From NCBI GenBank assembly GCA_001574975.1, contig KQ965740.1, forward strand, positions 62,001 to 126,000: a stretch of 64,000 nt of DNA. Direction: 5' to 3'. Below are positions 33,169 to 53,500 of the stretch, one piece after another. Within the stretch, counting starts at the first letter, position 1. Every line of letters begins with the position of its first letter. The translations under genes were made by a program, and so were the position numbers. This DNA is from Gonapodya prolifera JEL478 (Eukaryota; Monoblepharomycota; Monoblepharidomycetes; Monoblepharidales; Gonapodyaceae). A model generated the notes under the pieces. That model was not told the DNA's origin and made no database searches. It saw nothing but the letters and a program-made list of their open reading frames with translations.

Positions 33169-35384
33169 TTAACCAAACATGTGTACAATTTTCTCCAACT
33201 TTGCAAAAGCGTCAATAATTGTTTCACCAAAAGTGACAACACCGTCCTCATGTCCCGCCATCAAAAAGTACCCGCACTCAAGCACGTCACTCTCCGCAAA
33301 CAGCCGCCTCACCTCCCGGCACATGTCGGGGGTCCCGTACGCAACAGATGCGCGGGTCGCAGGAGGGGCCCCCGGTGCCGTTGTGTTTTGCGCCTGCAGC
33401 ATGGCCGACCAGATTTTGCGATTGTGGAAGTGCAGCACGCACCGCACGCGGTCACCGCCGGCTGCGTACACCGTCGCGTGCGTCATGCTTTCACTGCTGG
33501 CCTTGACGGGCCCGACGCATCGAAGTGCGTTCCGCGATTCGTCGACGTGGGAAACCACAGTGTAGTGGTGTTCAGGCGCGAGGTGGAGGAGACTACCAGT
33601 CTGTGTCCCCGTGATCACAAAAGGTCGAAACTCGTGTCCGCGCCCCGATCCCGATCCGGCGAGCAAGCACGAAACGTTTCCAAACGCAACGCCATCAGGA
33701 TAGCTCCCCAGAAGTCCGAGGTTGTAGAGCTTCGACCTTGTCTCATTGAGCACAGCCAATTCCTGAAGAGTGCTGGTCACATCGCGCGATAATGCACCGA
33801 CGGCGGCTTCGATTGACGCGACCTCCCAGTGCAGCGAGAACTTGATAACACCGTCAGATGGTGCTGAAGCCGGATTCTCGAGTATAGGCGCCGCAATATC
33901 CACGGATATCTTGTCGGGTCGGCCGTTATCGCTGGGGAACTGGGCCGCGTTGGCGTCATGCTTTGAAAGGGACGCACATGCAACGAGCTCTCACCATTAC
34001 GCCAAGCCCTTCCTCTCCGGCCTGGCAGACGCCTCGTTCGGTGATCAGCGCGGTCACGAGTCGGGACGGTGTGACGTCAAAGGCTGGGTTGAGCGCGGAG
34101 GAACTCGGGTCGATTGCTCGTACGGTGACCACTTTTTGGTCTGTACCGATGGTGGACCTTTTTCGGGCAGAAGAATGTCACTTCATGTTGAATCGTTCAT
34201 GGGGCCTTGGAAGTTCCACAGAGTTGGCTGTCACTCACCCAGCGACGATTGGACCCTCGACGTTTGTGACTTCGTCTTCGCTCCGAAACTCGATCGGTAT
34301 GTCGTCCCCTGAAGCGATATGCATGTCGACGGTGGAGGAAGGGAAGGCGACGAAGAAGGGAACGGCGTTATCCCTGGCGGACAGGGCTAGGGAGTACGTG
34401 CCGATTTTGTTGCACACGTCGCCTGACGGGAGGAAGTGTGAGCGTAGCGAAACGGCTTCGTATATGGAGATTTCGGGATTCCTCGCTTCTCCTTGTCGGC
34501 AACAAAGTTGGGAACTGACCATTCTTGGCAACACGGTCAGCACCAACAATGACCGCGTCGACCCATCCCTGTCTCATGAGCCATCCGCCGGCATTGTCCG
34601 CCACCACTGTATGCGGAATTCCCGCCTTTGACAGCTCCCAAGCTGTCAAACGGGCTCCTTGTAGCCGAGGCCGCGTCTCACGCACCCACACGTGAACTGG
34701 GATGCCCTTGGCGTTGCTTGTGTAGATGGGCCCAGTCGCAGTGCCCATGGTCACGCAGGCAAGCAATCCCGCGTTACAGTGCGTCAGAACGTTCAGGTGG
34801 TTTGGATAGGGATGTTTTCCTTTGACTTTGGGCAAAGTTGCCTGGCGGTGTTCGCTTATGCGCTCCCATATGTGCGACAGCAGTCTTGAACCAGCTTCGC
34901 CGATAAGGTTGCACATTTTGACGTCGTCTTCGCAAATTGCGTCCGCCTGGCGGAGCAGCGAGGCTGCAACGTCGCGCGGTGTCGCGGCACTATTGGATTG
35001 CAGCGTCTCTTCTGCCAGGCGAATCTGCCGGTCGACGGCCCAAGCGAGATTGACTGCCGTGGGACGGGTCGCTTTCAGGCGGTCGCCGGAAACGCGGAAG
35101 CGAGCCCCGAAGTCTTGTTGCCAGTCCCCGGATTCATCAACTTGCGAAGCGATTTCTCTGCCGGCGACGAACATGCCGTACGCAGCCGTGACGCCGATGA
35201 GCGGGGCCCCTCGCACCTGCATTGTTTTGATGCATCGCTCGAAATCAAGTGCGGTGGCAAGGCTGACCACAACTTGCTCAAATGGGATTTTCGTCTGGTC
35301 GAAGATGAACACGTTGACTGTGCCATCCGGCGACGTGCGAGTCCAGATTGTTCGCAGAGATGTCCCCACCGCCTGGCTCTCCAT
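33169..35384 (-). CDS. MRI1: methylthioribose-1-phosphate isomerase fused to a class II aldolase
   Basis: Exons 35384-34520, 34422-34239 and 34157-33995 give a complete MtnA/Mri1 isomerase of about 404 residues: MQVRGAPLIGVTAAYGMFVA, LTHCNAGLLACVTMGTATGP with the catalytic Cys, HTVVADNAGGWLMRQGWVDA with the catalytic Asp, VGADRVAKNGD and NPAFDVTPSRLVTALITERG. A donor GTGAGA at 33994 and an acceptor at 33961 (34 nt) or 33940 (55 nt) both join in frame to a class II aldolase domain of about 260 residues ending at 33169. That domain has YNLGLLGSYPDGVAFGNVSC, FVITGTQTG, KASSESMTHATVY (catalytic Glu), RCVLHFHNRKIW (HxH metal site) and LMAGHEDGVVTFGE (third His). The aldolase part has no in-frame ATG near its start. 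Isomerases of this family make methylthioribulose-1-phosphate; class II aldolase relatives cleave or dehydrate it. Without splicing, the isomerase alone would end shortly after 33995. Confidence 0.8.
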
Positions 35385-41546: not shown

Positions 41547-44500
41547 ATGAATCACAAAAAGAGACTGAGGTGTCTCAACCTGGAAGATATCCCTCCGAAG
41601 GATGCTTCACGTTATGCTTATCTTCGGCGAGCAGTTGTGGAAACAGTGGAATCTCAGGTTGGCGCCAGTCACTCACGTTTCCATCACTGCACACCTATCA
41701 CGACGCTTGCTCCAAGGGAACTTTGCCTTCTGATGATGATCATTCGCATTGGACCGGAACCTTGCTGCCGCAGCTTGGAAGTTCGGAACCTTTCGAACGG
41801 ACAGCCGCTCTCCGCGGTTTACTTACGATTTCTCCAGTGCTTTCGATGAAATTGAGGAGCAGATGTTTGCAAAAGGCCCTAGTTATCGTCTTGGGTGACC
41901 TGGCCATGTCGGACGAAGTGAGATCACAGATGTTGATGGTTTCACAAATTGCATTCACCCTGTGCTCCTTGTTCAGGTACAAAAGAACAGGTACATTGCT
42001 CTGAGACTATTGGGAGACGCCTGTGTCGCTTTCAGGGATACACTTCACCACAAGGTTACCTTGCTTTCATTCAACATCTGTCTCCGAGTGTTACTCCGAC
42101 TGTTTCCAGTGGAGCGAACAAGTGATCTGAATCGTCCCCCCTTTTGCGAAAAGTGGTGGCTCCGTCCCCATCCTCAAATCCTGAATGCAGAAGTGCATGC
42201 TATTGATAGCATCAGTCGTTTTTTGGGGCTTCCCCCTGCACAAGCAAATGAGCCATTTATGCGCTACATCGACGCTCTGTTCGCCTACTTATTGAGCCCA
42301 AAGGTGTGTACGGGTCGAAGGTACCTTGCTTTGACCAAGTCACCAAACGTTTTCTTGAGAAGGCGCCCAAAGTTATAGTTATCGCTGTCTTGAGGGCGCT
42401 TTCACAGCATCTCCCACTTACGAACCGAAATAGGACCAGAGTGGAAGTATATTTTCGAACTCCAATACGGATCCTGGTGGATACTTTTATTGAGAAAGGT
42501 GTCTTCAGTCGGAAGGTTATGGCACCTGAGAATGGGACTCTCCAGTCACTTCCACTAACCGAGCAAGGCTTGGACGCCGCCGAAGCGAATCGTGATTCCG
42601 CTCCAGATGACCATACGGGGATCATTGATCAACCAAAGTTGTCGATGAAGGATCCCCTTCTTTTGCTCCTACAACGGGAGCTCTATCGATTTTGGTCTGT
42701 TTGGTTTCCTTTGCCTCCAGATGCTGCAATTTTGAAGCTTAGCGAGGAGAACATCAGGAGGATGGGTGATGGTTGCTATGTAGCCCGTCGAAGAGCTTTT
42801 CTCAAGTCGAAGAGGGACGATCGAAAGATTCTCTCGTGTCCATACCCAGAAGGTCCTATGGCTACCGAAGTCTTCTTTTGGAAGCGGGAAAAAGTGATTG
42901 CGAAAGACATAATTGCGTCATGCCACAGTAGTGTTTCCGAAGTCTCCAAGATGGCATCCAAATCTCCGGGTACCGATTCGTGGACTGTATTACGACCCCT
43001 GGACTCAAAGCACCATCTCCAGGAGCTCTCCTTTGACTCGTCCGATGGGTCGACACTGGTATTTGAACCCAACAGCCTTAATGTTATCGTTCCGCAACCA
43101 CTATTGCTGTTCAATCGACATCCACCAGCGTGTGATATCACCATTCGCAATACCTCCACCACGCACCCAGTCTTGTTTCATGTTCAGGTTGAGCCTGCTG
43201 GGATGTTTATCGTGGAGCCTAGTGTTGGGGTTGCTGGCCCACGTGAAACTGTTCTTGCGAGAATTACTTGTATCGGAGGATCGAAAATGCCATGGATGGT
43301 CTCCCGGGGGACTATCGTTGATGGTTGGTTGAAAGTTCGATCGGGATTCGATGCTTGGAGTGTGGAGAGGTGAGTTGCTGAATCGCTGTTGGGGCATACG
43401 TGTAATGGTTAGCGTCGCTCACCAACCTTCTTCGAAGAGTTCCCCTCCGTGCGTACCGATTCCCCATCCTATCGATCTCAGGAAGAAGTCTTAGTTTCGG
43501 TATATGCCCCCCTGGGGATTCAAGGACATTCCCCGTTTACATATCAAATCTGGCTGACGCTGATGTCGCTGTTGCCCTCGCTATTCCTTCCGGGCGGAAA
43601 ATTTTCAATGTGACACCATCGAGTCAGATTATTCTCGCAGCTCGGGAAACGAAGCAAATTGCAGTCCAGTTTACGCCAAGTATTGATTCGAGGAGGACCT
43701 TGGGGGAGAATTCGACATTGACTGATTCGCTTGTTGTTGTTACCATTGGAGGAGAAGTCCATAAAATTTTGTTGCATGGTGTTGTTGGAGAAACGTTGGG
43801 ACCGATCCCTCAAATGATCGATTTCGGCTCTGTAGACATAAACCACCCAGGGATCACAAGACATATGCTGCTAAGAAATTCAGATTCTGTATTTCCACTT
43901 CCCTTGGGGTTTGAGATCAGTACAGATGATATCATGGTCAATGATGGACACCCTTTGGTGCTTAAGCCAGGAGCTGTCGAAAAGGTTCCAATTGCTTTTA
44001 GAAGCAGCCTTGTGGGAGAACGATCAGAGACTTTGCGAGTGTTTGGACCCGGGCTGCTTCCACGTGATGTGAAGATAACTTCATTTTCGGGTCCGAGTGT
44101 GCTGTTCCCCATTGCGAATGAAATATTTCTGGGACCTCTGTCCCAAGCGACAAGCGGACTCTACTCTGTTACTGTTCCAATCTACAATATATCTTCCTCC
44201 ACAGCAAACGTTGTGCTTGCTGTTAGGAAAGGGATGGGTTTCGGTATAGGACGACAGAGCGACCGAGATGTCTCCGACAGCGAAGAAATCACCTGGGGAT
44301 CGATCGAGAGTTACCCAGAATATAAAGAGTGCAGAGGTGGTATCTTGGGGCTTCCACCAAACTCCAGAGCAATGATGGACGTAAGTAGTCGCAACAATCT
44401 GGTGATCCTTTTGTTTCACACAGGCATACCATTTTCCAGTTATGTTTCCATCCGCTCGGTGTCGGTACTTTTCGAGCAGATCTCATAATGAGAGTCGTGC

Positions 44501-47500
44501 ACCCAAGACCGGAGCCAGAACAGAGGATCACACTTAATGCAATGGCGATTCCAACTGCTGATGTTCCGTCACTTCAAACCCTTCGTACGTGGTGGAAGAA
44601 ACCATTCTTGGAACCGCCGTCGTCATCGATGTCCAAACTTGAGGGCGAAAATGACTTCGATACGGAGATCTCTTGGGGTAATTCTGAAGTTCTGTATTTT
44701 GACCAACAGAATCAGACAGTTGTGGCAACTGATGAGGCTGGGGCTACAATTTTCGAGAACGTTACACTGACAAACGCAAGCCAACAAAAGCAACCGTTCC
44801 GTCTGGTAATTTCTCACCCATTTGAAACGGACATTCCACTTGACGGGTTGCTTGATCCGGGGACCTCCATTGATATTCCCCTAAGATACGCTCCGTTGAA
44901 AGATAAGGAACCACAATCGAACAACGTTAATCAGATAACGGCAGTTGGCAGCATATGCGTAGTGGATGCCTTCAATTTTGTTCGAACGGTTCCTCTCTTT
45001 GGAGTTTGGAAGAGCATGGTATCTGTGGAAATGCGAGGCGGAACACGAGACCTGAAATTTTCGAGGACCCAGCTTAACAACAAGAGTTCTCGGAAACTTC
45101 TTCTTAGGAACAAATCTGCGTCGACCATAAGCCTGGAAGGTCGTGTGAATAGTCTAGGGCAGCGGGCGAGCTCTTCAAAGAACAACCAAAATAATTTAGC
45201 ACCCACAAGTGGTGAAGGCCTTGTCTACTTTTCATTATCACAGCAAAGATTGACTTTGCGCCCGTGGGACTCAGTGATCCTGGAGATCAACTTCCAAGGT
45301 ATTCGATCAGGATTGAATAAGGCACACCTTTTTCTTGAACAGCAAGACTCGTTGTCCCGAGTTAGCGCTTCGGGAGACCGTGCAAATGAGTCTATTAAGA
45401 ACAGGAGACCTGTGCTTTCTTTGAGTCTATTGTGCGAAGTGGGCGACTCTTCGTGGATTGTGGAGTGTGATAGTGTCGATTTTGGTGCTGTTTCACTTGA
45501 CGAAACCGCCACCAAATTGGTAAACATTAAGAGCGAGTGGGCAGCAGATGCGACTTTACTGTTTTCAACGACACAACCTGCGATAGTTGGTACAATCGAC
45601 AGGAACCTTCCAGCAATGCGCGTGTCAGAAATTCCACTTATGTGCCACGGAACCAGAACAGGACTATATAATTGGTTTTTTCAAATCTCAGGGAGCTCCT
45701 GCTCAAAATCTTTAGCCCTTGTAGCCAGAATCGGGTCGCACAAAATTCTTGCGGACAAATGTGTTCCTCTGATAACCCCGCGTGACCAACCGAGTGGAAT
45801 TATGGAAATTAAGCCAGATGTTGCACTGAGTAACATTATGAAGCAAAGTGTTGTGGACTTCGGCCAGGTTTCCTTAAACGACACATCCGTCAAATCTATT
45901 CGACTGACTAACGCGGGCACTCTTGGCATTGCAGTTTCACACATCGCTGTGCGAGATCCCATAAGATTGCATTGGACGGTCGTCGATGACAGAGAGTCTC
46001 TGGATTCATTGCTTCTGTGTCAAACACCATCTATCAAATGCGTGTTGCAGAGCTCCGACAGAACGCTTGAGGATAATCGTAACTCTGACTATGAGCTACC
46101 GTTTGAGCCAAGTGGAAATAGTTGGTTAGATTCGGCGGAAATCGATTGGGACGAAGTTTATGCTCAAAGTTTGGACGGATTTGGTTCACGGACGACACAA
46201 AAAATGGTTGCAACAAAGCGTCCAAGGAGATTTGACGTCACGACGACGGCAGGTTCCATCGGTACCAAGTCCGCCAAAAACTTGTTCCCGATCAGGATGG
46301 AACCTGGACGTAGTCTCGACCTGATTTTACGGGTGGCTAATCTAGAGCAGGTATGATGTCGTTTCTCACGACTGCGGCTGAAGCGTTTCATTCACTACGT
46401 CTGCAGGGCCTTTTTCAAACTGTTCTGAATGTAGATTTCGAGCGAAGCGGAGGGGAACCATACAGGATGGAGATGATTGTTCAAGGCAATGCTCAACCTC
46501 CGCTTCGGCTGCTCGAGAAGAAACTAGAGTTTGGCGTGAAGCCAGTTCGCGGTCGAAGCGTGAGTACATTTTCGTGGCACAGTGGATCCGATGCGATTCC
46601 GCTAATCCCATTTTACAGACGTTTCCACTCAAGTTTGAAAATCCCGGTCAGTTCGCAGTTCCGTGGGAAGTGAGGTGGGGTAATACTTCTTTTCGTCATC
46701 ACTCGCGTCATCCGCGAGCAAGCGATATGTCCAATACCTTGCTGAGGCTGGATAAATATGAAATGTGCCCCTTTGATGTGTTTCCTACCAGCGGCGTACT
46801 TGCACCTGGATGCATTCAAACGTTGGATGTCACGTTTCGTCCTACTCTTTCTGAAACTGAGGTGTCCTCAAAATTAACATTGGTGTCAACAAAGTTTTGC
46901 GAGTTTTCCATCGACCTACACGGGATTGGGGGCTCAACACGATTCGTTTGCTCGCAAGATAATATCGATTTCAGTACTCTCCGCATCGGTATCTCAAAAG
47001 AGAAGACGATTTCCATCAGTAATCGAGGTATCCTGCAATCAAGGTACTTCATTGAATCTTCTGATGCTGCATTCACTACAGAGCCAGAACAAGGTATCCT
47101 TGAAGGTGAGAATGGCTCCCTCTTTCCGAGTCCATTTTGCACTCGTCCAGAATGCGCTCACTGTTGTTTTGTGAAACCCAGGGGATGGAGATGTTGATAT
47201 TTCAGTTTCTTTTAAACCACGCAGGGCAGGGTCACATTTTGCCAGACTGCTGATTTTCGGCAGGTCACTGGAAGGAGCGTTTCATCTACAACCAGTGGTA
47301 ATCCAGTTGTGTGGGGTTGGAGGATATCCGGAAATCATCTGCCATACAAAAGTCTTAGATTTTGGGACTGCCCTCTACATGATGCCAAATTATCGACACG
47401 TCTCCATTCAAAACAAGGGGTCGGCAGAGGCTGAGATCCAGTTTGATTGCTCGCATGCATCGATCACACTCGCCGAAGATGAGGATGGAATCATACTAGC

Positions 47501-50500
47501 GCACCAAACAAAGGAAATCAGAATACAATACATGCCGACCACAGTTGAAGTGTTGGACATCAAAGGTTTTATCAGGTCTTCAGATAGTCGTGGTGATTAT
47601 TGCATGATCACACTTCGAGGGACAGTTGGTGTTCCGAAGTTGGAAGTGGTGCCGAAAGACTTCAGTTCTTTGCTTGATTTCGGGATATGCAGCATCGGAA
47701 CCACATCTCAGCGCGAATTAAGTATCGTTAATACGGGAAACATTTCCCTGAACTTTGCTATCCTGTTGACCAAACGGAGGCCCCTCCCGGAACCCGAAAC
47801 CACAACAAGTGCAGCCGAGCCTGTTACTATCACGCCTCAATCGGGCAAAATCGAAGTCGGTCAGTCGATTTTAATCTCGATCAAATTTTCTCCCGCTGCG
47901 ATGGTGCAGTATCAATTTCAAACAATCTTTAACTATGATTTCCACATGATTGAAGGTGTGCTGAAAGGGTTCGGTGGAGCCGCAAAGCTAAAAGTCGCTT
48001 TGCCTCATCGAGTAATCGATTTCGGCGTCTGTCGTCTCGGTCACCCCTTCAAGAAGCGTGTCGCTTTAAATAACGAAGGGAACGTGGGAACATTTTTCCA
48101 TGTTCGACCCCATCCAAAGGACGGGAATTGGTCCGTCTATGAAGAAGAGATCACAAGAAATACAGGGAAAGAGGCGGAAAAAAATATTAATAATATGGAA
48201 CTGCCTCAGCTGGAACACGATTCGGCGAGCCGGATTGATTGGGTGGCTGAGCTTTATGACCTTGGCTTGCGCATTCTAACCCCAGATGGCTATTGCGGGC
48301 CTGATAGTCGTGTGGAACTTGTGTTCGAATATCTTGCCGAATGCGAAGCTCCGATCTCAACTTCAGTACGGACATACTTTGGAGATCGTTATGAAGAGTT
48401 TACCGTCTTGGCAAAGTCCTCTGTTCCAAAACTTGATATTTATGGATATGATGGTCGATGTCTTTCTGGAGCCGAATCGGCACCCTTGGACCTCGGTGTT
48501 CACCGCGTTGGGAGTCACTTCAAATCATTTCTATCACTTAGCAATGAATCGCCTTTCGGTCTTGACTTCTTTGTGCAGCCGACAGGTCTTCAGGAATTTG
48601 AGGTCTCTCCGCAGCGAGGTCATGTCCCGGCCGAATCCAGCGTTCCGCTCTCTGTCGTGTTTAAACCTCACGGGGAGGAGCGGGTAACAATGGATTTGAA
48701 GATACTTTGGGAAAAGGAAACTCTTTGCGCCTTAATCGTTGGCTCTGGAGGACTTGGCCGGATCGATATTGAATTTACAGAAGAAGCGGATCAAAAATGT
48801 GGCTACTTGGAGTTTGGAATGGTTCCTTTCAATACTTCGTCTGAGAAGCGCTTTTATGTCTGCAACACTGGAATGGTAGAAGTCGCTTTCCATGTTTTGG
48901 TCGACAACCCTGAGTTTGGTATTACAGTGTTGAGCGACCCGATGCCATTGGAGGATCGGAAGAAAGGTTTGCGACAGAGAGAACTTCACTTGAGGCGAAC
49001 TACAAAACTACAGTGGTTCGCAAGTGTTTCTTGTGTCGTATCACCTGGAAGTTGTATAGAATTGGGTTCCAATTTCACAAGCAAAGCCCCCGCAATATCT
49101 CAGGGATACATACGAGTGATGTCTGAGAGCGGTAACAAAAGTATCCAAGTCCGTGGTAGAGGCGGTACAATCAACTTAGGACATCGAGGAGATTTGAGCT
49201 TTGGCGACATCTCGAGCAATTTTGTGTATTCGCGCACGTTGACTCTCTTTAACACAGGGTCAATTCCAGCTTTTTGTGATTTGGAATGGTCTGTAGTGGG
49301 CCATAATGTGGATGCGACGGAAGGGAAAGTTACACTGGTACAATCTTACGTTCAGCATGATCCTCGAAGCGGGTGGGCTCGCCAACAGGTTCTCAATGAA
49401 AAGAACTTACCTATCACCACAAATGCTCCGAGGTTTGGCGCAAAAGATTACTGGCAAATGATTCGCATCTCGGTTTTGTTTACGGATCATATCGTGAGAA
49501 TCGCCTCGGAAGACACCGCTGTGGTTAATACATTGTCAAAATCCAAGAAAAGTCAGGTGCAACTTGCGCTTGATCTTTCGGGAACAACACAATCCAAGAA
49601 GAAATCTGGTCGCATTGGAAGGATGGCGGATCACAGCAAGAGAAAGCAGTCCTTGTATCAGCTCGTTGCTTCTAGTCAGCTGACAAGTCAAAGCACAGCT
49701 AAGCTGCACTCGTACATTAAAGTGGAGCCCACGTCCATTCTGATTCCAAGCTATGAAGAGGTCACGATCATGATTGAAGCTTGCTTGTTGACGGAGGAAA
49801 CATTCTTGGCCACATTGCTATGCCGTCCCCAAGTACCCAACACTCCACCACACGAAATTGCACTGTCTGCAACTCCGAAAGCTGTTTCGATCCTCTGCGA
49901 CGACGTCCGCGCATTGAATTTCTATCGTCAACCCATCAATGAACCCGAAACGCTGGTGCGGACATTTTCCAATGTCGGGCATAAAGATATCACGTTTCGT
50001 ATTCGCAATGAGAACCTCGGTCTTTCTATTATGCCTTCGAAAGGCTCGCTGAGAATGGGTCAATCAATTACGATTCAGTTCACGTTCCGCGCCGCCGATG
50101 AATATATACAGAATCTCCCTGTAACGTTCGAGGCAGATTGCTCCCAGCCAATCCGCTTCAACTTTTTTGGAGCCGGTGGCGCGGCAAAGGCGTCTCTGGC
50201 GAAGTATCGCAGGTTTGATTTCGGCCATTGCATGATTGGAAAGAATACTGTAAGTGTGATAATTTGATCACATAATCCGTTTTGAAGTAATACCCAAGTT
50301 GCTGTTTCAATAGACATCTTTTCTTCCAATCGCGAATGAGGGGAACGCGATCCTTCATTTGACTAAGTTCGAACTCGAAGAGACTGATACTTTCATCTGC
50401 GGACAAGATTGGCCAACGGGACGGTACGTCATACTGCACCATTCGGCAACCCAGATCCACCTTGATGTCTTCGTTGCTTTCATTTTCCGTAGAGTGTCTT

Positions 50501-53500
50501 TACCACCTGGGAAAACGTTTAATCTACCGATTGTCTTCAATCCACAGGAGGAGAACCCACCAGCTGGAAAGCTTACTGTCGGTACAATGAATGAAAGGTG
50601 GACAATTGAGCTTGTAGGCGCTGGCAGAGAGGTGAGCATCTTCTTCAGCTATCATTCTGAAGAATTGAACTTCAAGATACATTACAGGCTGTTCTCATCA
50701 TCTCGCGGAGCTCATTGGAATACTCCGACTGCATCATCGGAAACCGCTATGAACAACGTCTTGATTTGAAAAACGTTGGAGATGTGGTGCGTGACAAGAA
50801 ATCGTTTCCAACGAGGCGTTATAATACATTTCGTATTTGATCCACCAAGAACTATCCCATAACGTTTCGGTTTGATTCGGACTGTTCCGATCTTCGTGTT
50901 ACCCCAAGTACGCTAACGATACTACCTTTTTCGGAGTCATCCGTAATGGTGGGATTCGTACCAACAAAGGTGACTGGCATTAGACCGTATGATTTGGGGG
51001 GACTCAGCACGTAACGAGTTTCCCACTATTCCCAGGAAACGAAGAGAACAGTTGTCCTCGAGGTGACATCCCCATATTCTCATCACAGAGTACCCATTAA
51101 CTTGCACGCAGGCTCGGTTACACTGGAGTTTAGCGTGGAGAGTTTGGACTTCGGAATGTTTGAGAAATCCACCCGACCGGAGTTGAAGTTCAGCATTAAG
51201 AATGTTGGCACAGTTAAAACATCCTATCATTTGAAGGACTCGAGTCGACCGTCGAGGTTTCATATCACAAACTCGAAGGGTAACCTTCCACCCAAAAAGA
51301 TTGCTGAACTTACTATAACAACCATACGGTACGAAGTCGGTAGCTTCAAGGAAAAACTTGTTCTAAAGACGGATCTAGTCAATCGGCCGCTGCAATTGGT
51401 TGCTCATGGACAGTGTGAAGAAGCCCTTCTTCAGCATGAAGAATTCAATTACGTCAACTTAGGGCTTTGTCCAGTTTCTGATGTGACCAACAAAACGGTA
51501 ATATGGCGAAACTACGGTAGATTCCCACTTTCTTGGTCTATGAAGTTCGCCTACCCTGTGAAGGCATCTCCCGCTTCAGGGGTTACTCTAGGGGGTGAAA
51601 CTACTACGTGTCATATTTCTTGGACACCAAGTGGTGCATACGAACTTCGGACAGCCATCAGTCTGGTCACAAATATAGGAACATATCCAATATCTGTCAG
51701 AGGAAAGGCGCTCTTTCCCGAGATCGGTATCAGAAGCGTCTTTGTGGACTTTGGAGTTTGCGCCATTGGCACAACCTACACGGAAACTATATCTATCACG
51801 AACAAGGGCAAAGTACCGCTAGCGTGGCAGATTCCCCCACCCAAGGAGCACTATACTCTGTCGAAATCTGAGGGATGGATGTTGCCCAAAGAAAGTGATG
51901 ACATACGAGTTTCCTTCACACCCCCCAGCTTCGGAAAGTTCACTTCCAATTTACTGGTAGAGTGTAAGGGTATAAACTACAAGGAAGTTGCACTGCTTGG
52001 TGTCGGTGGTCGAATGAATCTTGATATATCGCCCACCGCTCTGCAATTAGGTACGTTACACGAAACGAGTGCATTCCTCTGATTGATCTTTGCAATGATC
52101 AACAGGAAAATGTCCTTGCAATCATTTTGCCTACGGAACAATTGTGTTAACCAACAACGGCGATGTCACCTTGCATTGCAACTTCACAATCTCTCGCCTC
52201 GAGTCTGAAGTTGGTGATATCAGCCTGCCAGAACCGCTGACCCTCAAACCAAACCGAAGCGCTCGCTGCGTGATTGGATTGGCGTGTCGGACGATGGGAA
52301 GATTTCAGCAATCTTTAAACCTTGTAACGAAGGAAAGGACTTACGAGCTCGTTGCTACTGGTAAGGCTCGAGAAAATTTTTGTACCCGGTCCATTCGACA
52401 TCACTTGTACTTGCATTAGGTTACGGCATCAAAGTATCTCTGACGGACATATCGCGCAGACTCTTGCAGGAGGAGGCACTGCCATATGTGAGTCCACCGC
52501 CTCACCCTTGACTTAGCGACAGTAGTAATTGCCTGTCATTTCAGTTGCAAGTTGACAGTCCTTTTACGAAAGAGATCACGCTTGAATCCATCAGCACTTG
52601 GATGAAGCAACTGCGGCTTCCAAAAGACGTCTTCCGTCTACTGGATCAAATTCGACGAACAAACTCGACTGCGGAAGCATCATCGTTGGAGATTGGCAGA
52701 CAAACGCTGCGCACTGTTGGATATTTTTTGGCTGGATTTGAACCACTCCTAGGTTCACAAGCACTCGAGAAGAAGAGCACGACTGAAGTGGCTCTCGAGG
52801 AGGTTGCAAAAGAAGAATTGGGAGGCAGGACCTTGTTGAATGACACGGACATCCAATCCGCGCCTCCTCAACAACTCGAAGACAAGATCCGCGATATGCA
52901 GTCATCTACCGGATTAGTGATACCACATCCAGTGCAAAGGTTATCCAAAGAGATCAATTCACTGATTGCACGTACCGATCCACCGACCGAGGAATCTGTT
53001 GTGAAAACACTGATGGAGGTATGGTCAGCCAATTTAATAGTTCAGTGAATGCATTCATTGTATTCGGTTCTTTTGTTAGGTCGTGAAGTGGAAGCTGCAG
53101 GGGCGTTACTTTGACGAAGACGTAGTGGAAACAACAGAAGATACTCCAGTGAACACGGTTATCACGTTCCCCATTCCCATGGTTCGTTATGGATGAGGCG
53201 TTAAATGTTCCTCTTTACTAACGAGAACTCATCTCATCAGATCAGAGACGTTTCTGTCAATCAAATTCTTTGTATACAAGAGCCAGACACTACAGTACTC
53301 TACGACAAGCTTCTCAATCGGCCATTGCCGTTTCCTGGTGAAGAACCACCTGTGCGTACATTTTCTTTGATTTTGAAAAAATCAAACTGAGGCTCACCAA
53401 ATCTCCAGAAATCCAACACGGCTGGTTTCTTGATAACCGCGCGCCCGCGAGAACGAGAATTTTCGAGTTTGGACCGCTCCAAACGCATTGCGCGAACGGT

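Follow-up and report, generated by a model that had tools for sequence, protein, structure and literature searches.

A predicted isomerase–aldolase fusion and a candidate DHAP-forming salvage route in the zoosporic fungus Gonapodya prolifera

A single gene of Gonapodya prolifera JEL478 appears to encode, within one polypeptide, a methylthioribose-1-phosphate isomerase (MtnA) followed by a class II aldolase. The reading preferred here, to which a probability of roughly 0.6 is attached, is that the gene makes one bifunctional salvage enzyme of the dihydroxyacetone phosphate (DHAP) shunt type, that this enzyme offers another route alongside the complete pathway of methionine salvage, and that it probably stems from a fused bacterial operon. 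The gene lies on contig KQ965740.1 in a stretch of 64,000 nucleotides, the whole of which is referred to below as the window. In a search of openly licensed PMC papers, no description of an MtnA–aldolase fusion was found.

The fusion gene

Translation of all reading frames, together with a listing of splice sites, gives a four-exon gene on the minus strand, from 35384 to 33169, with a product of 660 amino acids. Its features, in window positions, are as follows.

35384, minus strand: start ATG
34520..35384, minus strand: exon 1, MtnA residues 1-288 and one base of the codon that follows, with the THCNAG and GADR motifs (from translation, splice sites and profile match)
34423..34519, minus strand: intron 1, 97 nt, GT...AG (splice-site listing)
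34239..34422, minus strand: exon 2, MtnA (splice-site listing)
34158..34238, minus strand: intron 2, 81 nt, GT...AG (splice-site listing)
33995..34157, minus strand: exon 3, MtnA towards its C-terminus, NPAFDVTP...ITERGVCQAGEEGLGVM
33940..33994, minus strand: intron 3, preferred length 55 nt, GT...AG; lengths of 34 and 85 nt would keep the frame too
33169..33939, minus strand: exon 4, the last MtnA residues FPSDNG, a linker, the class II aldolase domain and the stop
33171-33169, minus strand: stop TAA
33102..33107, minus strand: AATAAA, 62 nt past the aldolase stop

All three introns run GT...AG and are phase-consistent. In this regard, a previous sequence-only reading of this DNA had described phase-consistent isomerase exons, which holds, and two in-frame acceptors for intron 3, a number that has to be raised to three (34, 55 and 85 nt). 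Its central proposal, an isomerase–aldolase fusion in one gene, is supported by the exon structure, by an MtnA tail that extends across the last junction, by the order of the corresponding prokaryotic genes and by three single open reading frames (ORFs) from Omnitrophota. Some 160 nt beyond the aldolase stop, a further gene begins at about 33007 and runs downward on the minus strand; it bears a likeness, by eye, to sphingoid or diacylglycerol lipid kinases, and its first open stretch is without a Pfam match.

The isomerase half

On profile and motif evidence, the N-terminal half is a complete predicted methylthioribose-1-phosphate isomerase. The spliced protein scores 378.7 bits against the MtnA model TIGR00512 (cut-off 279), covering positions 10-334 of 335, and with the 55-nt intron it also covers positions 1-278 of the 280 in Pfam IF-2B. 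Both the THCNAG and the GADR motifs are present in the translation, the Cys of the former and the Asp of the latter being presumably the catalytic residues of MtnA.

The aldolase half and its subfamily

The protein encoded by exon 4 shares 36-47% identity with 80 prokaryotic proteins, more than chance would give; its codon usage barely sets the true frame apart from the shifted ones (0.061 versus 0.040 and 0.002). These 80 relatives, retained from among 329 and the basis of all locus counts given below, belong to cyanobacteria, Bacteroidota, Omnitrophota, Nitrosomonas, a number of archaeal lineages known from MAGs, and other groups. When they are aligned with the window domain to give 81 rows, the following residues are invariant.

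33490..33492, minus strand: Glu of the SSES motif, identical in 81/81 aligned rows
33424..33432, minus strand: HxH metal ligands, each His identical in 81/81 rows
33250..33252, minus strand: third metal His, identical in 81/81 rows

The aldolase-like domain with HxH, a third His and the SSES Glu that had been described beforehand is thus borne out. All 81 rows match Pfam Aldolase_II (PF00596), the window domain with 32.5 bits against a gathering threshold of 22.2 (30.5 bits in the spliced protein, at positions 46-177 of 183). An AlphaFold model of the domain has a pLDDT of 88.3, with low values over the first 30 residues, and gives VIA-align Z-scores of 18.5 with FucA, 18.0 with DrdA, 16.7 with an AraD epimerase and 16.4 with MtnB (APIP). 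From the Pfam score, the three His and Glu, and a fold Z of up to 18.5, the C-terminal domain is a class II aldolase fold.

Assignment within this fold is a separate matter. The window domain falls far below the cut-off of every NCBIfam model that it touches, the MtnB models included (TIGR03328, 15.6 bits against 137.05; PRK09220, 19.7 against 226), and no fuculose-phosphate aldolase model matches it or the spliced protein at E<=0.001, FucA_Meth reaching only E 0.17. Among all 81 members, no match to an NCBIfam model is better than E 4.2e-12, obtained with the generic aldolase PRK08660, and matches at E<=0.001 are found for 77 members with PRK08660, 73 with PRK09220 and 65 with TIGR03328. E. 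coli Ald2, in contrast, passes PRK08087 (365.6 bits, cut-off 264) and so belongs to the FucA subfamily. Against a profile of the new subfamily, Ald2 scores 21.9 bits, two bacterial MtnBs 20.4 and 23.8, and the MtnB of the fungus itself -1.9. At E<=0.001 the same profile finds only two AraD sequences and aq_1979 among PDB sequences, the solved DrdA being absent, and the AraD matches carry SSD where the subfamily has the SSE Glu. The comparison with MtnB, Ald2 and class II aldolases, which the sequence-only reading had put forward as a check, accordingly puts the domain under the MtnB cut-offs and apart from Ald2; by these profile scores, the aldolase half is assigned to a subfamily that has no curated model and is distinct from MtnB and from E. 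coli Ald2.

Searches further afield gave no match to the aldolase in plasmids, no confirmed relative in viral contigs, and none in a first scan of genome contigs with the window protein alone. Two sequences labelled as plasmids, NZ_CP141089.1 and CP125156.1, have the appearance of bacterial chromosomes by their size (4.9 and 5.4 Mb).

Prokaryotic gene order and bacterial fusions

An mtnA-like sequence is present in 45 of the 80 prokaryotic loci that carry this aldolase subfamily. It stands upstream and on the same strand in 41, in 38 as a separate gene and in three within one ORF, which is the order of the two domains in the fungal protein. The genes are closely spaced, 31 of the 38 separate pairs lying between a 59-nt overlap and a 20-nt gap (the value of -799 in L054 is an artefact of the ORF start). 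Exceptions are L055 and L019, in which mtnA is downstream, and L051, in which it is on the other strand. These linkage counts are lower bounds, as many loci run into contig borders, and the Gemmatirosa locus (L099) was not used. In most of the cyanobacterial loci the aldolase gene lies away from mtnA. A gene that is MTAP-like by eye occurs in 5/80 loci, and in all five of those genomes the MTAP model exceeds its cut-off beside the aldolase.

The three ORFs which hold both domains come from Omnitrophota MAGs (L025, 599 aa; L026, 583 aa; L069, 657 aa). They share with the fungal fusion the same two domains, of the same subfamilies and in the same order, and differ from it in being bacterial and uninterrupted, with other linkers. 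Matches to the family at E<=1e-15 were found in 19 of 285 Omnitrophota genomes; 12 of these are strong, of which three are in frames of about 600 aa. The three fusions do not group together in either the MtnA or the aldolase tree.

Proposed chemistry

In the route proposed here, MTAP could release 5-deoxyribose-1-phosphate from 5'-deoxyadenosine and 5-methylthioribose-1-phosphate from methylthioadenosine, and the N-terminal isomerase would convert one or both of these to the ribulose-1-phosphate form. The C-terminal domain, as a metal-dependent class II aldolase with three His and the SSES Glu, would then cleave the sugar phosphate to DHAP and an aldehyde, either acetaldehyde or methylthioacetaldehyde. 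The activity and substrates are putative, and fusion may in addition confer some channelling or other advantage. Aldol cleavage to DHAP and an aldehyde is described for bacterial MtnA–Ald2 and DrdI–DrdA in PMC10986504, PMC5893883 and PMC6079011.

Sequence and fold by themselves do not choose aldolase chemistry, since the Ald2 and MtnB scores against the subfamily profile are alike and the Z-scores of AraD and APIP are near that of FucA. The fold matches also include epimerases, decarboxylases and non-haem oxygenases, and this, together with a subfamily named by no curated model, could be accommodated by a domain which acts on another phosphosugar or has other chemistry of the superfamily (epimerase, decarboxylase or oxygenase). 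Such a role is nevertheless unlikely, as the subfamily has the SSE Glu and not the SSD of the AraD matches, and as mtnA, and in some loci MTAP, adjoins the aldolase gene.

Rather unlikely, too, is a C-terminal domain that is a methylthioribulose-1-phosphate dehydratase, in effect a variant MtnB, such that the fusion would join two ordinary steps of methionine salvage. MtnB is of the same superfamily and its two models give the frequent weak matches noted above, albeit with more for the generic PRK08660, and other salvage fusions, MtnAK and MtnBD, are reported from Tetrahymena in PMC3698126. The scores against the MtnB models are, however, a small fraction of their cut-offs, and the position aligned by eye with the Glu of the MtnB HQEM/FEM motif is variable (E 51, Q 13, A 12, D 4, S 1; n=81), where the SSE Glu is invariant. 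Moreover, the fungus has a canonical MtnB and MtnA elsewhere, the former being the one with the negative profile score.

The gene content of aldolase-bearing genomes also bears on this point. ARD is required downstream of MtnB, and with a dehydratase feeding methionine salvage it should be common in such genomes. MtnB, ARD and MTAP were searched for in 50 of the 80 genomes, all aldolase-bearing, namely the 45 with mtnA linkage and five cyanobacteria without it. MtnB exceeds its cut-off in 4/50 (two of the 45) and ARD in 5/50 (three of the 45). One of the ARD matches is marginal (29.3 bits); the genomes with strong ARD are the four with MtnB, and both occur in 2/45 of the mtnA-linked genomes. 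Put the other way, 43/45 mtnA-linked genomes are without MtnB over cut-off and 42/45 without ARD, although many of the 50 genomes are MAGs and some of these absences may be gaps. Weaker matches at E<=0.001 occur in 47/50 genomes for the MtnB model and 8/50 for ARD. MTAP is over its cut-off in 15/50 genomes and above 200 bits in 18, with weaker matches in 29 and none in 3. In the three Omnitrophota fusion genomes ARD has no match, MtnB nowhere exceeds its cut-off, and matches to the MTAP model are weak in two and lacking in one. Two cyanobacterial genomes (L044 and L090) have MTAP, with MtnB and ARD not over cut-off.

With MtnB and ARD over cut-off in so few aldolase-bearing genomes, aldol cleavage as in the DHAP shunt fits better than dehydration, and the reading as MtnB is disfavoured by model scores and genome co-occurrence alike. 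The choice between dehydratase and aldolase, which the sequence-only reading had left open, therefore leans towards aldolase.

Salvage genes of the fungal genome

The fungal assembly measures 47.6 Mb and contains 72 matches to Fungal_trans, as against none in 14 control genomes, all prokaryotic, in keeping with the attribution of the protein to a fungus. Domains on the contig within the window include Med13, CEP44 and HYDIN/CFAP65-like. The HYDIN/CFAP65-like Ig domains (44389-52079, plus strand) point to an organism with flagellated cells. Taken together, the Fungal_trans matches and these flagellar and centrosomal domains indicate that the genome is most likely that of a zoosporic fungus. Bacterial contamination was considered and rejected, given that the fusion gene has three introns and that the contig carries these eukaryotic genes.

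The fusion was found at a single place in the assembly. A second, canonical MtnA lies in exon pieces on another contig (C5), which once joined give 325.9 bits with human MtnA; at this locus (L011, C5:433500-437000) a long acidic, low-complexity open stretch precedes the NPAFDVTP exon and is either an insertion or an in-frame open intron. MtnB is found on two contigs, C102 and C154, its best exon reaching 132.5 bits (cut-off 137.05), and enolase-phosphatase on two more (C22 and C23), such that both of the genes looked for elsewhere in the genome are present. ARD pieces lie on C20, C35 and C92, and MTAP-like exon pieces on C6 (108 and 97 bits, both below cut-off). The fungus hence keeps the full methionine salvage pathway beside the fusion (MtnA, MtnB, enolase-phosphatase and ARD), and since these separate canonical sequences exist, with the MTAP-like ones, the fusion would constitute an extra branch. 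Several near-equal gene pairs fall on two contigs (C102/C154, C22/C23, C35/C92 and C24/C147), as if separate haplotypes had been assembled.

The junction between the halves

Under the 55-nt intron 3, exon 4 codes for the FP of the MtnA tail, to give the reading GLGVM-FPSDNG. Of 42 MtnAs encoded in prokaryotic aldolase loci, 31 have FP at the corresponding position and four have YP; the C-terminal motif of the linked prokaryotic MtnAs is mostly LFPE-like. Because exon 4 then supplies this FP, the 55-nt intron is preferred. Against a profile of the linked MtnAs, this variant scores 432.3 bits, compared with 429.0 for the 34-nt intron, 428.6 for the retained intron, 428.5 for the 85-nt intron and 428.3 with no tail, such that among the predicted variants of intron 3 it fits best, by a modest margin of 3.3-4.0 bits. 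A 34-nt intron would also be short, given that a neighbouring gene, thiolase-like by eye, has four introns of 57-85 nt (placed by eye). Of the two junctions originally envisaged (34 and 55 nt), the tail and the profile score thus both favour, if modestly, the longer.

Both domains would then be made from a single mRNA as one protein. The earlier statement that the aldolase part has no ATG of its own is upheld for exon 4, whose first Met is residue 152 of 257, downstream of the SSE Glu, and needs qualification at its edge, where the last codon of exon 3, directly before the donor, is itself ATG. A transcript starting inside exon 3 could consequently splice to exon 4 in phase, and retention of intron 3 would add 12 codons before a stop, ending the isomerase in VRARCMCVPFKA with a score about equal to those of the 34- and 85-nt variants. 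That the isomerase mRNA ends in practice after exon 3 or retains intron 3, with the aldolase coming from a separate or alternative transcript, is for all that unlikely: the only AATAAA or ATTAAA on the minus strand from 35450 to 32900 is the one beyond the aldolase stop, with none before 33107, the first Met of exon 4 comes only at residue 152, this exon also codes for the FP of the MtnA tail, and single-ORF fusions are known in the three Omnitrophota MAGs.

Origin of the fusion

The MtnA tree comprises 52 rows, including 42 MtnAs from aldolase loci; two fragments (L043 and L019) and the mtnA end of L016 were left out. The linked MtnAs and those of E. coli, Sinorhizobium, Rhodobacteraceae and Azospirillum form, together with the fusion MtnA, a clade of 45 rows (100/100). 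The fusion MtnA is 46% identical to the MtnA encoded in the mtnK-mtnA-ald2 cluster of E. coli. Within this clade it is placed beside the other 44 members and not among them. The canonical fungal MtnA pairs with human MtnA (100/99), apart from the fusion MtnA. Long branches in this tree are those of L055 and Klebsiella. In the aldolase tree, the fungal aldolase is on a long branch (1.9) without a reliable neighbour. The fusion was probably acquired from a bacterial mtnA–aldolase operon whose two genes fused.

Relation to known salvage systems

The DHAP shunt of Rhodospirillum, Rhodopseudomonas and some E. coli, MtnP (or MtnN/Pfs and MtnK)–MtnA–Ald2, has an isomerase of the same clade and, behind the isomerase gene, a gene for a class II aldolase; it differs in that Ald2 of E. 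coli belongs to the FucA subfamily, whereas the fungal aldolase is of another, and is fused, in a eukaryote. The 5-deoxyribose salvage of Bacillus thuringiensis, DrdK–DrdI–DrdA, likewise combines an isomerase with a class II aldolase, and DrdA is among the best fold matches, but its enzymes are separate proteins in bacteria (PMC6079011), and DrdA is missing from the PDB sequence matches at E<=0.001. In Haliscomenobacter hydrossis and Synechococcus WH7805, according to PMC6079011, drdA clusters with a gene for an isomerase. Among eukaryotes, salvage steps are known to be fused in Tetrahymena MtnAK and MtnBD and Arabidopsis DEP1, with other partners. DEP1 joins a class II aldolase domain to a phosphatase domain, and besides dehydratase/enolase/phosphatase activity it showed aldolase activity on 5-deoxyribulose-1-phosphate (PMC6079011).

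Two statements from this literature give the finding its setting. PMC6079011 suggests that plants, like numerous other organisms, deal with the 5-deoxyribose of radical-SAM chemistry by side activities, and cyanobacteria that lack an Ald2 homolog are said to require another pathway of 5'-deoxyadenosine salvage (PMC8102628). An even chance is given to the broader proposal that the fusion serves a zoosporic fungus as a dedicated enzyme for salvage of the sugar derived from 5'-deoxyadenosine (and possibly methylthioadenosine), made by fusion of the two genes of a horizontally acquired bacterial operon, and that the aldolase half represents an uncharacterised DHAP-forming subfamily, which may also supply the aldolase missing from cyanobacteria in which mtnP and mtnA are present and MtnB and Ald2 both absent. 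The subfamily is a candidate for 5'-deoxyadenosine salvage in cyanobacteria that lack an Ald2 homolog, and in the L044 and L090 genomes, too, it is a candidate for the 5'-deoxyadenosine route. A single fungal protein may thus perform the clean-up of sugars left over from S-adenosylmethionine by a route so far bacterial; if so, the fused isomerase–aldolase, beside full methionine salvage, would be a dedicated eukaryotic route for 5-deoxyribose.
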